Positions 48,774 to 57,255 of a stretch of DNA of 64,000 nucleotides are shown in pieces. Where the stretch lies: assembly GCA_958296385.1 (NCBI GenBank), contig OY282494.1, positions 1,285,416 to 1,349,415 of the forward strand, written 5' to 3'. The stretch is from an uncultured Dehalococcoidia bacterium. GTDB lineage: Bacteria; Chloroflexota; Dehalococcoidia; Lucifugimonadales; UBA3495. Position numbers and translations under genes: made by a program. The notes beneath the pieces were generated by a model, which was not told the DNA's origin, made no database searches, and saw nothing but the letters and a program-made list of their open reading frames with translations. How positions within the stretch are numbered: the stretch's first letter is position 1; each line of letters opens with the position of its first letter.

Positions 48774-50441
48774 ATGCCAGATACCATCAAAGCCAGCGAG
48801 CACAATCTCAATGCCATTTTCAACGATGCTTACCTCTTTGAGATACCTGAGTTCCAACGCCCCTATGCGTGGACTACCGAACAGGTTGACGATTTGCTGG
48901 ACGACCTGCTCTATGCGATGGGCCGGAATGACGATGAACCTTACTTTCTGGGGAGCGTTGTCCTTATCAAGGGAGACGATGCAAAAAGCCAGGTGGTTGA
49001 CGGCCAGCAGCGTTTGACGACGTTGACCATGCTGCTGTGCAGTTTGCGCGAACTGGCGGAAGGAGAATTTCAGACCGCCTTGGATGCTCGTATCCGACAG
49101 AAGCGCGACATATTGGCAGGGACGGAGGAAGTGGTTCGCCTCAGCCTCAGATCCCGTGACCAGTCGTTCTTTCACAAGAACGTTCAGGCCAGCGGTGGGA
49201 TAGGCGGCTTGCTTGCTAACGCGCCAGCAAGGGAAACGGACAGCCAGCAGCGCGTGTTCGAAAATGTCAGGTACTTGCACGAAAAAATGGTGGCTCTTGA
49301 ACCTGACAAGCGGCAGCGTCTGGCTACCTATGTCTTACAACGATGCTATCTGGTGATAGTCTCCACACAGGATATGACCTCTGCGTACCGGATATTCTCG
49401 GTTATGAATGACCGGGGGCTGGATCTTTCGGCGACGGACATTTTGAAGGCCGAAGTCGTCGGCGCTATCGAAGACGCCGAGAAGCAGCACAGTTACGCCA
49501 GCAGATGGGAAGATGTGGAGCAGGAGTTGGGACGCGAACGGTTCGGCGCCCTCTTTGCCCATATACGGATGATTTACGCGAAAGCCAAACAGCGACGGAG
49601 CTTGCAGGAGGAATTCAGAGAGTACGTATTGAAGGCACATTCAGGCGCTGATTTCATTGATCACATTCTGGACCAGTACGACGATGCTTATAAAAGCGCA
49701 CTCGGCTTGCCTAACGGGAGCATCACGAATACGTCGCAGGTCGATACTTATCTGGAGCATTTGAACCGCCTCGAAACCTTTGACTGGATTCCTCCGGCGC
49801 TGGCATTTTTCCATCGCAATCAGCGCAACCAGGAAGAATTTCCTCGGTTCACCAAAGATTTAGAACGGCTGGCCTATGGATTGTTAATCCAGCGTGCAAA
49901 TATCAACGCGCGGATAAGCCGTTATGCAGCAGTTTTGCGTGACATTGAGCAAGGCGACGTCATTTGGCGGGATGACGGGCCGCTTCAGCTAAGTGAGGAT
50001 GAGAAAGCCGCAATTGTGCGTATATTGGATGGTCCAATTTACACACTGCCACGCGTTCCCCAACCTTTGCTGTTGCGGCTGGACAGTTTGCTGGCCGATG
50101 CCGGAGCAATTTACGACCGCTCGATAATATCCATTGAGCACGTACTGCCACAAAACCCGGCAGAGGGTTCTCAGTGGCGTACTTGGTTTCCGGACAACGA
50201 AGTGCGGACGCAATGGACGCATCGGCTTGCCAATCTGGTGCTTTTGTCATTCCGCAAAAACACCAGCGCATCAAATTGGGATTTTGACCGTAAGAAGAGC
50301 ACGTACTTCCAGAGAGGGGGCACGGCGCCTTTCGCGCTCACTACTCAGGTAGTGAATGAAAAGGAATGGACGCCGGCAGTTTTGGAGCGACGCCAGCGTG
50401 AATTGGTTGGCCTTCTCAAAAAGGAATGGCGGCTCGGCTAA
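48774..50441 (+). CDS. DUF262/DUF1524 protein, GmrSD-type restriction factor
   Basis: A 555-residue protein that joins an N-terminal DUF262 domain (FQRPYAWTTEQVDDLL at about 28-43, then VVDGQQRLTTLTML, a DGQQR NTPase/nickase motif) with a C-terminal DUF1524 HNH-type domain (IEHVLPQNP at about 458, then HRLANLVLLSFRKNTSASNWDF). This single-chain layout is that of GmrSD-like type IV systems that cut modified phage DNA. It is followed within 15 bases by a toxin-antitoxin pair, fitting a defence cluster. The ATG at 48774 is chosen for its position after the promoter and ribosome site. Confidence 0.85.
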   Translation: MPDTIKASEHNLNAIFNDAYLFEIPEFQRPYAWTTEQVDDLLDDLLYAMGRNDDEPYFLGSVVLIKGDDAKSQVVDGQQRLTTLTMLLCSLRELAEGEFQTALDARIRQKRDILAGTEEVVRLSLRSRDQSFFHKNVQASGGIGGLLANAPARETDSQQRVFENVRYLHEKMVALEPDKRQRLATYVLQRCYLVIVSTQDMTSAYRIFSVMNDRGLDLSATDILKAEVVGAIEDAEKQHSYASRWEDVEQELGRERFGALFAHIRMIYAKAKQRRSLQEEFREYVLKAHSGADFIDHILDQYDDAYKSALGLPNGSITNTSQVDTYLEHLNRLETFDWIPPALAFFHRNQRNQEEFPRFTKDLERLAYGLLIQRANINARISRYAAVLRDIEQGDVIWRDDGPLQLSEDEKAAIVRILDGPIYTLPRVPQPLLLRLDSLLADAGAIYDRSIISIEHVLPQNPAEGSQWRTWFPDNEVRTQWTHRLANLVLLSFRKNTSASNWDFDRKKSTYFQRGGTAPFALTTQVVNEKEWTPAVLERRQRELVGLLKKEWRLG

Positions 50442-50454
50442 TCGGAGGGCAACG

Positions 50455-50697
50455 ATGGCTAAACGATTACAAGTGTTGCTGGACGAGGCCGAATACGCCT
50501 CGATTCAGAATACGGCTCGGCTCCAGGGGCTGAGCGTTGCCGAGTGGGTGCGTCAGTCCCTCCGCAATGCTCAGCACGGATCCCCCGAATCTATAGAGGC
50601 CAAATTGCGTGCAGTGGCCAAAGCTGCGCAGCATGAATTCCCTACCGCAGACATTGACGATATGCTGCGCGAGATAGACGAGGGGCGAGGCATCTAG
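50455..50697 (+). CDS. Ribbon-helix-helix-type antitoxin
   Basis: An 80-residue small protein with an N-terminal beta strand and helix pair (MAKRLQVLLDEAEYASIQNTARLQGLSVAEWVRQSLR), the sequence pattern of ribbon-helix-helix repressors, and an acidic tail likely to bind the toxin (ADIDDMLREIDEGRG). The GGAGGG site precedes the ATG. Its stop overlaps the GTG of the PIN gene by one base (TAGTG), as in many toxin-antitoxin operons. It should autoregulate the operon. Confidence 0.82.
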   Translation: MAKRLQVLLDEAEYASIQNTARLQGLSVAEWVRQSLRNAQHGSPESIEAKLRAVAKAAQHEFPTADIDDMLREIDEGRGI

Positions 50698-51092
50698 TGA
50701 TTTTCATTGATTCCAACGTGCCTATGTACATCGTAGGCACACCGCACCCGAACAAAGAGAACGCTATGGCTGCGGTTACCGACCTTTTGAGGAACGGCGA
50801 GCGTCTAATCACTGATATAGAGGTTTATCAGGAAATACTCCATCGCTACACCTCTCTCCGGCGTCCGGCGGCTATGGACGCTGCGTTCGAGGTAATTGAC
50901 GCATTGGCGAATGACGTATTGTCTTTTGGGATGCCGGAAATACGCGCCGCCCGCGTACTACTCGCTTTAGTCCCGGGCATCTCCGCACGCGATGCTCTGC
51001 ACGTAGTGGTGATGCAGTCCGCGGGTTGCAATCGCATCTTGAGTTTTGATGCCGGGTTTGACGCTTGCCCCGGCATTGTGCGCGTCAGTTGA
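50697..51092 (+). CDS. PIN-domain toxin (VapC type)
   Basis: A 131-residue PIN-domain RNase. Acidic metal ligands can be placed: Asp5 in IFIDSNVPMYI, Glu43 area in DIEVYQEILHRY, Asp in SARDALHVVVM (about residue 100) and the last in ILSFDAGFDA. VapC toxins cut tRNA or rRNA; the target here is unknown. The start is GTG overlapping the antitoxin stop, and the frame fits the family N-terminus. It converges on etfA with 8 bases between stops. Confidence 0.88.
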   Translation: MIFIDSNVPMYIVGTPHPNKENAMAAVTDLLRNGERLITDIEVYQEILHRYTSLRRPAAMDAAFEVIDALANDVLSFGMPEIRAARVLLALVPGISARDALHVVVMQSAGCNRILSFDAGFDACPGIVRVS

Positions 51093-53148: not shown

Positions 53149-54156
53149 TCAGATTTCGCGGAACTCCGGTTCCGGTTCCTCGATGTAGAAATTGTTGGCC
53201 CAAAGGTCGTCAATGATGGCCTGGTCGCCCTCGGTGATTGGCGGGGTGTCCACGGCGTCGGAGTATTCTTGCAGCTCGTCCGGCGTGGTGAAGTTGGGCA
53301 GCACGCTGGTGATGGTGGGCTGGTGCAGCACAAACTGGATGGCCGCCTGGCTCATCGTGCGCCCCACCTCTTCGCCGGCCAGAAACTTGACCTGCGCCAC
53401 CTTGACCAGCGCCTCGCTGAGCCACTGGTGCCGGCGGAACGAGCGGTGGTCAGCCTCGTCAAACTCCGGGGGAGCGTCATAGCGTCCGGTGAGCGCCTCG
53501 GATGCGTGGGGCACCCGCGACAGCAGCCCCACCTGTTCCTGCGCCGCGATGGGAAAGAAATCTTTGGCCGGGTCCTGCTCCAGAATACTGTAAATAATCT
53601 GGACGCTGCTGACCTTCCGCTCCTCCATACTGGCCTGCCCCTCCTCAAACCAGCCGATGTCCGGCCCCAGGGCGGAACCGTAATGGCGGATTTTACCTTC
53701 CTGCTTGAGGGCTTCCAGCGTCTCAAAAACCTCGTCGTCCGCGATGGCGGCGATGCGCGGATTGTGCAGCTGGTACAGGTCAATGTAGTCGGTATCCAGC
53801 CGGCGCAGCGACTGCTCGCAGGCAAAGCGGATAAACTCCGGCTCAAACTTCTGCGGCCGTTCCTGATGGCCGACCCGGGGCGTAGTCTGGTCGTAGAAAT
53901 CGTACCCAAACTTGGTGGCGATAATCATCTCGTGCCGGCGATGCCCCATAAACTTGGCCAGCACCTCCTCCCCATACCCTTCGCCATAGGTATCGGCAGT
54001 GTCAAAGAAGTTAATGCCCAGCTCAAGAGCCTCCTCCAGCAAGCGCCGGCGCATCTCCTCCTCAATACGGCCCCACCAGTTAGTGGCCACCGTCCAAACC
54101 CCAAAACCCACCTCAGAGATGAGCAAGTCAGTGCGCGGCAAACTGCGGTACTTCAT
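53149..54156 (-). CDS. Aldo/keto reductase
   Basis: A 335-residue NADPH-dependent oxidoreductase with the TIM-barrel catalytic set: Asp and Tyr in NFFDTADTYGEGYGEEVLAKFM (about residues 51-72), Lys in MIIATKFGYDF, His in YQLHNPRI. The sequence is the AKR11/12-like group, with MKYRSLPRTDLLISEVGFGVWTV at the start. The natural substrate is unknown, and such enzymes reduce diverse carbonyls. The ATG at 54156 fits the family start. It is a single gene between etfB and the overlapping unknown pair. Confidence 0.88.
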   Translation of the reverse strand: MKYRSLPRTDLLISEVGFGVWTVATNWWGRIEEEMRRRLLEEALELGINFFDTADTYGEGYGEEVLAKFMGHRRHEMIIATKFGYDFYDQTTPRVGHQERPQKFEPEFIRFACEQSLRRLDTDYIDLYQLHNPRIAAIADDEVFETLEALKQEGKIRHYGSALGPDIGWFEEGQASMEERKVSSVQIIYSILEQDPAKDFFPIAAQEQVGLLSRVPHASEALTGRYDAPPEFDEADHRSFRRHQWLSEALVKVAQVKFLAGEEVGRTMSQAAIQFVLHQPTITSVLPNFTTPDELQEYSDAVDTPPITEGDQAIIDDLWANNFYIEEPEPEFREI

Positions 54157-54197: not shown

Positions 54198-54641
54198 TCA
54201 ATTGGTGGCGGGATATATTTCGTTGGAGTCAACCGACATCGCCAGCAGAGCGGCAGCGGCAGCATTGCGAGTTGTGTAACCGTATATTCCGGCGTGGGAT
54301 GGGTCATGCGACTCGCCCAACACTATAAACCGGATGTCCAGTCCCAGGTTGTTCCGGCACGCGGCAGTGGCAATCCCTACATTAAGCACGGCAAACGACG
54401 CAGTGGGCCTGACCCTGAAACCTTTGTCGGCCAGTGCGTGTTGCGCGCCGGAAATTTGGGATTGACGGTCGGAATCGTGAAAATACTCCAGCCAGTTGGT
54501 GGACAGATATTCCTCGGCAGAGCGGAGGAGAAACGCGCCTTCTTCGATAATTCCGTCTGCTGCGATGTCGCGGGGACGGCAATAACGCGCTACGTGATGC
54601 GCCGGCGGGAGTTCGTGACGGCCAGACTGTCCTTGTACCAT
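54198..54641 (-). CDS. Unrecognised protein, second of an overlapping pair
   Basis: A 147-residue protein I do not recognise. Conserved-looking parts are HHVARYCRPRDIAADGIIEEGAFLLR, YLSTNWLEYFHDSDRQSQI and a C-terminal HALADKGFRVRPTASFAVLNVG with DPSHAGIYGYT. It contains scattered Cys, His and Arg but no metal motif. The ATG at 54641 with AAGGA nine bases before it is chosen, giving a 52-base overlap with the upstream gene in another frame. A pair of overlapping unknown genes beside a restriction-modification operon suggests a toxin-antitoxin or defence module, but there is no direct proof. Confidence 0.6.
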   Translation of the reverse strand: MVQGQSGRHELPPAHHVARYCRPRDIAADGIIEEGAFLLRSAEEYLSTNWLEYFHDSDRQSQISGAQHALADKGFRVRPTASFAVLNVGIATAACRNNLGLDIRFIVLGESHDPSHAGIYGYTTRNAAAAALLAMSVDSNEIYPATN

Positions 54642-55087
54642 GTGAACCATTCCTTGGATTCCACCAATTTTGCCATGATAGATGAACGGCTGCCAACCTC
54701 GCTGCGGGTGTCAAGGTCGCTGAAATAGCCGTCCGATTTGCGCGCGGCGTACATAACCGTGTCAAAGTCTTGAAACCAGACACTTACCCGCCGATAGTCC
54801 GGGAAACGCCAGACCGACAAAATCCAGCCCTCCGGCGAACAGGTCAGGCTTATTTCCCCATCCTCCGATTCAACCGCTCCGAAAAACGCCAGAAAGCCCA
54901 GCGTACTGTCCAGCGTGACCGGAACATCGCCATCGTCCAAGTCGGCATCCGAAGCAAAATAGGCAATGCGGTCGGCAAGTTCCGGCCGCCCCCAACCGCG
55001 CAGCACAGCGCACACCTCCGCCACAGAGCGCAGGCCGGCGATAGCCTCCGGAGAAATGGGGCGGGGGATAATTGATTGCATAACCAT
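54590..55087 (-). CDS. Unrecognised acidic protein, first of an overlapping pair
   Basis: A 165-residue acidic soluble protein. Features are ELADRIAYFASDADLDDGD, LGFLAFFGAVESEDGEISLTCSPEGWILSVWRF (beta-rich) and WFQDFDTVMYAARKSDGYFSDLD. No known domain is recognised. Its 3' end overlaps the next gene by 52 bases, which implies coupled synthesis of the pair. The acidic, small, paired design would suit an inhibitor or antitoxin of the downstream protein, although roles could equally be reversed. Confidence 0.65.
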   Translation of the reverse strand: MVMQSIIPRPISPEAIAGLRSVAEVCAVLRGWGRPELADRIAYFASDADLDDGDVPVTLDSTLGFLAFFGAVESEDGEISLTCSPEGWILSVWRFPDYRRVSVWFQDFDTVMYAARKSDGYFSDLDTRSEVGSRSSIMAKLVESKEWFTWYKDSLAVTNSRRRIT

Positions 55088-55149
55088 AGGATGTCCTTTT
55101 GGCGGAACTGAACGCTGCCAGCCCGTTCCAGTCTATCACGCCGCTTTTG

Positions 55150-55818
55150 TTAGCAATTCCGCGCTGGCAAGCTGGCTGACATAATCTGCCGGCAATAGTA
55201 TGCTATTTCGTCCGACGTTTTTAGAGCGTCACAAAGCACGTCAAAAAGGTCGTGCAAAGCATTCTCGTCGTTTGTGGCTTTCTGATAAAAAGAAGCTCCG
55301 TCAATTTCGTAGATTGGCCTGGTCTCACTAGGCCCGATCCTGGTCTCGTATCGGTTTGGAACTTTCGGAACGATAACGACCAAGTATCCCGTCCAGCCGC
55401 GCCCCTTTTGTCGTACTGCGATGTCCAAGTCGGCAATAACCTTTTCCCGGTTGCTGGCATTCATCGTATTGTGCTTGTTTTTCACTTCTGCCAACATTTG
55501 CCTTGCCGGATTTTCCAAGTCATAGCCCGCATCGTGATTCGCCCACCCTGCTACTGAACTCAGAATTTCCTGATGAAAAGCTCCCAGGGCATTTGACATA
55601 CCTCTAAGAGCTGAGCTGCTGCTTTGAACCCCGCGCAAACTCTGCTCTCTGGCAATATTGAAAGCGGTCGCGATGAGCAAAGACGAAAACGGGTCTATTA
55701 CGTTTCGCTGTTGTCGTTGGTCAGCCTGATGTATAGCTGCGTTGGCACTGTAGCGCAACGTCGCTATGGCGGCTTCAAGCCGCTCGTCAGAAATCCAGCT
55801 TAATTTGTTCGTCGCCAT
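55150..55818 (-). CDS. Eco47II-family restriction endonuclease
   Basis: A 222-residue type II restriction enzyme. The match to the Eco47II/Sau96I-like family is visible at VIDPFSSLLIATAF, ALGAFHQEILSSVAGWANHDAGYDLEN, and the key AEVKNKHNTMNASNREKVI (catalytic E-x-K-type core), then IDGASFYQKATNDENALHDLFDVLCDAL near the end. Members cut GGNCC; the specificity here is inferred from the family. Its first 32 bases overlap the methyltransferase gene in another frame, coupling enzyme and methylase. Confidence 0.88.
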   Translation of the reverse strand: MATNKLSWISDERLEAAIATLRYSANAAIHQADQRQQRNVIDPFSSLLIATAFNIAREQSLRGVQSSSSALRGMSNALGAFHQEILSSVAGWANHDAGYDLENPARQMLAEVKNKHNTMNASNREKVIADLDIAVRQKGRGWTGYLVVIVPKVPNRYETRIGPSETRPIYEIDGASFYQKATNDENALHDLFDVLCDALKTSDEIAYYCRQIMSASLPARNC

Positions 55819-56668
55819 AATTCACCTCTGTTACGTACTCGTGGTTTAGCTCGATAGCGATAGGAATACGTTGCAATTGTGACGCTACCCTGAAGGTAGT
55901 CCCGCTGCCGGCAAAGGGGTCTAGCACGACATCCCCTTCGTCGGTGAACAGGTTGATAAAAAACTCCGGCAGCCATTCGGGGAATGCGGCGCTGTGGCCG
56001 GTGTTGTGGCAGATGGGCGATTTGTGCAGTACGTTGGACGGATAGACGGTGCGCTTGCCCTCCCACGCGGCGATGCGCCGGCCCACGCCGGAGTTGGTGG
56101 CCGATTCCTGCCGGGCGCGGTCGTTTGCGCTCATGTTGCTGAGCCGGGCGGCCGTCCAGTCCCCGATGGGGACGCGGACGGCATCCTGCCTCATCTTTAC
56201 GTCTTTGGTCTTGCTGAAGTGGAGGATACGTTCCCACGAATCCCGGAATCGGTACTTCCACTTGCCCGGCGCCGCCGTAGTTTTGTGCCAGATGTATTCC
56301 TCCACCCAGCGGAAGCCGGTTTCTTTTTTCAGCGCCAGTATCAGCTCCAGCACGTAGGTGTGCCGTTCGCCGTCAACCGCCTTTTCCTTGATGTTGAGGA
56401 CGAACGAGCCGGTAGGTTTCAGGATGCGCAGCATCTCGTCGGCGCGTTCGGTGAACCAGGCTACGTAGTCATCGGGGGCGATGCCGCCGTAGGTGTGCTT
56501 GCGCGCGTCGGCGTAGGGCGGCGACGTTACGATGAGGTCAACCGAATCGGCCGGCATCCGCCGCATCACGTCCAGGCAGTCTCCCACGTGAACCTGCCCC
56601 AGCCGCGGCGCACCCAACGGCCCGCCGTCAGCGGCGGATTGTACCGGAGCGCTGGGCAAGTTCGTCAT
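55787..56668 (-). CDS. DNA methyltransferase (beta class, likely N4-cytosine)
   Basis: A 293-residue modification methylase protecting the sites of the adjacent endonuclease. Motif IV is TSPPYADARKH (about residues 49-59), the SPPY form that suggests N4-methylcytosine. The SAM-binding motif I, DPFAGSGTTFRVA, is near the C-terminus, which defines the beta order. GQVHVGDCLDVMRRMP starts the catalytic part. It overlaps the DUF1802 gene upstream by four bases (ATGA) and the endonuclease downstream, so the whole set is one operon. Confidence 0.93.
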   Translation of the reverse strand: MTNLPSAPVQSAADGGPLGAPRLGQVHVGDCLDVMRRMPADSVDLIVTSPPYADARKHTYGGIAPDDYVAWFTERADEMLRILKPTGSFVLNIKEKAVDGERHTYVLELILALKKETGFRWVEEYIWHKTTAAPGKWKYRFRDSWERILHFSKTKDVKMRQDAVRVPIGDWTAARLSNMSANDRARQESATNSGVGRRIAAWEGKRTVYPSNVLHKSPICHNTGHSAAFPEWLPEFFINLFTDEGDVVLDPFAGSGTTFRVASQLQRIPIAIELNHEYVTEVNYGDEQIKLDF

Positions 56669-57255
56669 GCCGGCACCAGCCCCAGGCTGTCGCGCACCGC
56701 CGCCACCATCCCGGCAAAAGCGGCGTCATCCACCACCGGCGTGAGCTGGCCCAGGTTGACGGTTGGGATGACGTCCACCCACGACCGGCAGCCGCCGTAT
56801 TCGGGAATGAACGGCACGGTTACCGGGTTCTCCATCCGATACACCCGCAGCAGCATTATCGTCAGCGGCACCATCGGCTTCCAGTGCAGCCGCGATTGTG
56901 CGTAGGTATCCGTCCAGATGTGATGCGGCGCCAGATCCTCCACCTTGCCCTGCCGGTCAATCTCGATAAGCTCGTGTACTTTGGCCCAGTGCGTAAAGGT
57001 TACGGCGTCGTCGTCGGCCGGGTCGTCGGCCAGCAGCTGCCGCAGCGTGGGCTGGTGGCTGTCTTTCAGCAGGTATTCCCGCTGGTGCAGGTAGGTCGGG
57101 TACAGCAGGAACTCCGGGTGGATAACCCGAAAGTCCTTGCTCTCCTCGTGGATTCCGCCTTTGCGGAGCATCAGTATCTGGTCGCCGTCGGCCAGTGCGC
57201 GCACGGTGATTGCCCATTCTTTCAGGGCCAGTTGGCAGGTTGCGTTGGCAGTCAT
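56665..57255 (-). CDS. DUF1802-family protein
   Basis: A 196-residue protein matching DUF1802 by ALKEWAITVRALADGDQILMLRKGGIHEE and HPEFLLYPTYLHQREYLL, then VHELIEIDRQ. The family is widespread in cyanobacteria and Chloroflexota and has no proven function. The ATG at 57255 is the first with the family N-terminus. The four-base overlap with the methyltransferase shows co-translation, which links DUF1802 here to the restriction-modification system. The promoter is likely in the 56 bases upstream. Confidence 0.85.
   Translation of the reverse strand: MTANATCQLALKEWAITVRALADGDQILMLRKGGIHEESKDFRVIHPEFLLYPTYLHQREYLLKDSHQPTLRQLLADDPADDDAVTFTHWAKVHELIEIDRQGKVEDLAPHHIWTDTYAQSRLHWKPMVPLTIMLLRVYRMENPVTVPFIPEYGGCRSWVDVIPTVNLGQLTPVVDDAAFAGMVAAVRDSLGLVPA

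Follow-up and report, generated by a model that had tools for sequence, protein, structure and literature searches.

What are the two small, overlapping genes that follow a restriction-modification (R-M) operon in this Dehalococcoidia genome, and do they form a defence system of their own? The window, a 64,000-nucleotide stretch of contig OY282494.1, carries on its minus strand an upstream gene, A (54590..55087, 165 aa, ATG start), and a downstream gene, B (54198..54650, 150 aa, ATG start), in different frames. We propose that A is a protector or antitoxin and B an effector or toxin. The two genes share 61 bp (54590..54650, minus strand) if B is read from its first ATG, and 52 bp if it is read from a second in-frame ATG (54639-54641), which is better placed, 9 nt after an AAGGA (54651..54655, minus strand). 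A Shine-Dalgarno-like AAAAGGA (55094..55100, minus strand) precedes the ATG of A by 6 nt. The initial annotation had described two same-strand genes overlapping by about 50 bases in different frames, directly downstream of an Eco47II-type endonuclease; both points are borne out, the endonuclease gene ending 62 bp upstream of A.

Purifying selection acts on both genes. With the overlap excluded, dN/dS against homologues in four sister pairs (54-66% identical across the non-overlapping parts) was 0.21-0.30 for A and 0.17-0.24 for B, that is, about 0.2. Because dN/dS stays within 0.17-0.30 and the gene order is kept at every B locus examined, A and B are genuine beyond chance, and their status as a real, conserved overlapping pair is confirmed. 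The G+C content of A-B is 57.4%, as compared to 62.1% (sd 3.9) in 900-bp windows, which hints weakly at a foreign origin.

Neither protein belongs to a family that we could recognise, as had been supposed from the letters alone. The window A and B proteins gave no match at E<=1 in Pfam, NCBIfam or PADLOC. PDB sequences yielded nothing convincing (best E about 0.5; 0.15 and 1.5 in the profile searches), and PHROGs only unconvincing hits at E 0.04 and 0.14. No match was obtained when A, B and their distant relatives were compared with plasmids and phages by tblastn. Homology of A or B to a housekeeping family, which would have spoken against a defence role, was looked for in the same libraries and was not found. 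Weak PAS_3 matches came from 3 of 12 B members (best E 0.004). AlphaFold models were built from 3-4 sequences and reached a mean pLDDT of 50 for B and 55 for A, too weak for naming a fold; Foldseek searches with them returned no significant match, and neither a toxin nor an antitoxin fold was recognised. At low confidence, the model of A has a helical N-terminal half and a four-stranded antiparallel C-terminal half. Conservation in B is concentrated in a small set of residues (R22, F40, S50, W53 and H119), whereas A diverges; across 16 aligned B sequences, S50 and H119 never vary, and R22, A39, F40, W53 and L54 hardly do. A search of the literature by titles and abstracts turned up no evident description of the pair.

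Relatives of B, alignable over their full length, occur at the genus, family, order and phylum level (Chloroflexota, as indicated by the organism name of L015, a close relative). Among 250 genomes of the order 15 have B, as do 8 of 400 in a phylum sample searched with a narrower profile and two viral contigs; a scan of genome contigs gave one relative. In each of the 27 further B loci (28 B genes, from Chloroflexota and the viral contigs), the gene just upstream of B on that strand is an A-type match. These matches make up three subfamilies, to which weak ones in the two viral contigs and in G224 are added. The B subfamilies match each other by profile at E 5e-56 (one sequence being common to both profiles), whereas matches between the A subfamilies are weaker (E 1e-5 to 7e-15). 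We encountered five cases in which A lacks an intact B: G025; G009, where A is truncated; G015, with an additional A fragment; G001, where B has an internal stop; and G501, where B is truncated. The converse, an intact B without A, was observed at none of the loci examined. Small as these counts are, A-only but no B-only loci are the pattern expected if B were harmful without A.

In G006, two A-B pairs lie in tandem behind an EcoO109I R-M pair. The DNA of their A genes is 88-98% identical over codons 1-80 but only 44-48% identical beyond codon 100, and their B genes are 60% identical to each other. The sequences indicate that the N-terminal half of A has been exchanged or converted here, while the C-terminal half stays with its own B. 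The C-terminal half, with its four predicted antiparallel strands, is probably the part that recognises B.

In the window, A-B occupies a hotspot bordered downstream by an aldo/keto reductase-like gene (53149..54156, minus strand; placed by synteny, named from its sequence alone) and upstream by a DUF1802 gene (56665..57255, minus strand; PF08819 and synteny). The same interval holds the Eco47II-type endonuclease gene (55150..55818, minus strand; PF09553, E 1.1e-30), overlapped by the gene of its N4/N6 DNA methyltransferase (55787..56668, minus strand; PF01555, E 5.3e-43). At the same site in other genomes, we found nothing (G617, G030, G029 and G028), an Eco29kI-type R-M system (G012; Pfam RE_Eco29kI, E 1.3e-58; similar genes in G001), an EcoO109I R-M system either without A-B (G011) or with it (G006 and G015), an AIPR gene with A-B, overlapping A by 4 bp (G005 and G008), an AIPR gene beside a fragment of A (G009), or A-B together with a small gene that we call C (G003). 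Since the contents vary in this way among members of the family, A-B is one exchangeable cargo of the hotspot and not a fixed part of an Eco47II module.

Other features of the region may be recorded here. In sister genomes, the Eco29kI-type endonuclease and a methylase-like gene of the hotspot span L096:10132-11400, with similar genes in L097 and L098. Within the hotspot, a small conserved ORF (MGLSIGVV...) separates DUF1802 from the defence genes (L037:6811-7125; L038:6709-7023; L039:12161-12481; L040:13134-13532). The window also contains, at 48774-51092 on the plus strand, a second defence-like block (GC 53-56%) in which a GmrSD-family gene (PF03235/PF07510; PADLOC Orf5/HEC-06) is followed by a small antitoxin-like ORF and then a PIN-domain gene.

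Outside the hotspot, relatives in G057 and G472 are embedded in type III R-M operons with the order res - small ORF (80-90 aa) - TIGR04255 - A - B - mod, a DUF1828 gene being inserted between B and mod in G472. Elsewhere the pair is found near a type ISP R-M enzyme (G128), HsdS (second locus of G057), a DUF6791/ThiF E1-like gene (G005, contig 93) or DUF4238 (G010). In G035 a phage-type integrase precedes it by 1.6 kb. The G501 locus is accompanied by an N4/N6 methylase and a PDC-S35 TIR gene, and that of G015 by a HEC-01A-like ATPase. One of the two viral contigs carries AbiEii and the other a KAP NTPase. Some loci are devoid of any obvious nearby defence gene (e.g. G590 and G184). At 3 of the 18 non-hotspot loci an N4/N6 methylase gene stands within 5 kb, where the density of such genes in these genomes would predict 0.74 (P 0.034, the background being measured for N4/N6 methylases only). 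The load of these genes is very high, at 1 to 38 per genome among the window's genome (23 genes) and 20 relatives. Given how many defence genes such genomes carry, closeness by itself is modest evidence, and the association is supported without being overwhelming. A-B does show repeated linkage to defence genes in contexts unrelated to each other, as a defence-associated mobile module would. The initial annotation had proposed a toxin-antitoxin or accessory defence module and had suggested looking for co-occurrence with defence genes. That linkage does appear in other genomes, twice inside R-M operons, and the defence setting stands; "accessory" to R-M is too narrow, as the partners are varied and sometimes lacking.

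Pairs of a similar layout exist. In G038, G461, G006, the window's genome and others, overlapping or abutting genes encode a WNxYGA-type first protein and a second protein ending in GxGHC...G. Over 94 columns the GxGHC protein can be aligned to B with motif matching motif (P 3e-5); for the first proteins the alignment to A is marginal (P 0.009 and 0.11). It is plausible from these alignments that both kinds of pair share a superfamily. In the window's genome such a pair lies at 2.75 Mb (L113:1438-2384; others in L112, L110 and L109), with no Pfam match over cut-off.

The reading that we favour, although we put its chances at only about even, is that A-B forms a self-contained module of two genes, shuffled horizontally, which belongs to the hotspot and acts in the manner of a toxin-antitoxin or abortive-infection pair. 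The toxin-antitoxin reading fits the overlap, the obligatory position of A before B, the A-only but no B-only loci, and the conservation of B as opposed to the divergence of A. What the data show is that the genes are real and coupled, keep the order A then B and are associated with defence genes; toxicity, neutralisation, binding and defence are inferred. A would be made first, and its C-terminal beta half would bind B and hold it inactive. The effector would be B, whose conserved polar residues R22, S50 and H119 may form, with W53, an active site. Infection, or loss of A, would then free B and halt growth. In some relatives the upstream TIGR04255-type gene could act as a sensor or adaptor, and the R-M pair of the window would be an independent cargo of the same site. 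A more far-reaching proposal, possible but tentative, is that A-B, with or without the TIGR04255-type gene, represents an anti-phage system not described before, whose effector has a new fold. It would belong to a broad superfamily of overlapping pairs that has no name yet; in it, the C-terminal half of A would set the specificity for its own B, and recombination within A would shuffle the modules.

That the pair is a new system, as initially suggested, is plausible; to be complete, it may require a third gene, of TIGR04255 type, which is absent here. A-B could indeed be a truncated or alternative form of a larger system, TIGR04255 (or small C) - A - B, in which the first protein senses infection, A and B respond, and B is not toxic in growing cells. 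We consider this explanation rather unlikely. In its favour, TIGR04255 precedes A-B in G057, G472 and the viral contig L057, a TIGR04255-like ORF does so in the viral contig L094, and members of the small C family lie upstream of A in G003, G015, G005 (contig 93), G010 and G224 (L042:9912-10520; L040:10670-11134; L046:10318-10911; L055:8038-8712; L088:8341-8961). However, neither third gene accompanies A-B in the window, G006, G005 (contig 83), G008 and others. TIGR04255 is absent beside the window pair and has no match in the window's own genome (G000), and a kinship between the small C proteins and TIGR04255 is unsupported, with no profile match between them. A literature search found no mention of TIGR04255.

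Two further explanations remain. If islands collect any mobile gene, a pair serving stress responses, signalling or metabolism might accumulate there; the modest enrichment near methylases and the lack of a recognised activity in A-B would agree with this. We nevertheless hold it to be improbable, as A-B stands mid-operon in the type III R-M systems of two families and is swapped with R-M and AIPR genes in a single hotspot. About as improbable is that A and B are controllers, stabilisers or specificity helpers of the adjacent R-M system: their place directly downstream of Eco47II and EcoO109I R-M genes and inside two type III operons would suit such a role, but A-B is also seen after AIPR and next to defence genes of other kinds, or with no such gene nearby, and the EcoO109I R-M system of G011 occupies the site without A-B.

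The favoured reading, a self-contained module, turns two anonymous ORFs into a defined entity: its gene order is fixed, residues of a candidate active site can be named, a specificity boundary has been mapped inside A, and restriction and abortive-infection genes are its recurrent company. If the pair is active, a function would be gained for a family unnamed in the libraries used, and A-B could help to explain TIGR04255, a sporadic family of unknown function.

Set against known systems, A-B resembles several of them in part. TIGR04255 operons (NCBIfam 'sporadTIGR04255') have in common with it that TIGR04255 immediately precedes A-B relatives, as seen on a viral contig and in both type III R-M operons, but they differ from the window pair, which has no adjacent TIGR04255. 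The WNxYGA/GxGHC pairs are at best distant kin of A-B, with first proteins only marginally alike, but have the same gene order and the same close or overlapping spacing. Abortive-infection modules (AbiE, AIPR/AbiU-like) have no homology to A and B, yet are found in the same genomic company. As for type II toxin-antitoxin systems, neither protein matches a toxin-antitoxin family in the libraries searched, and no DNA-binding domain was recognised in A. In contrast, the architecture is that of such systems: two small genes overlapping by 61 or 52 bp, in an order kept in 27 of 27 further loci, with a protector-like first gene and a conserved second one, antitoxin-only remnants, mobility, and residence in defence islands.
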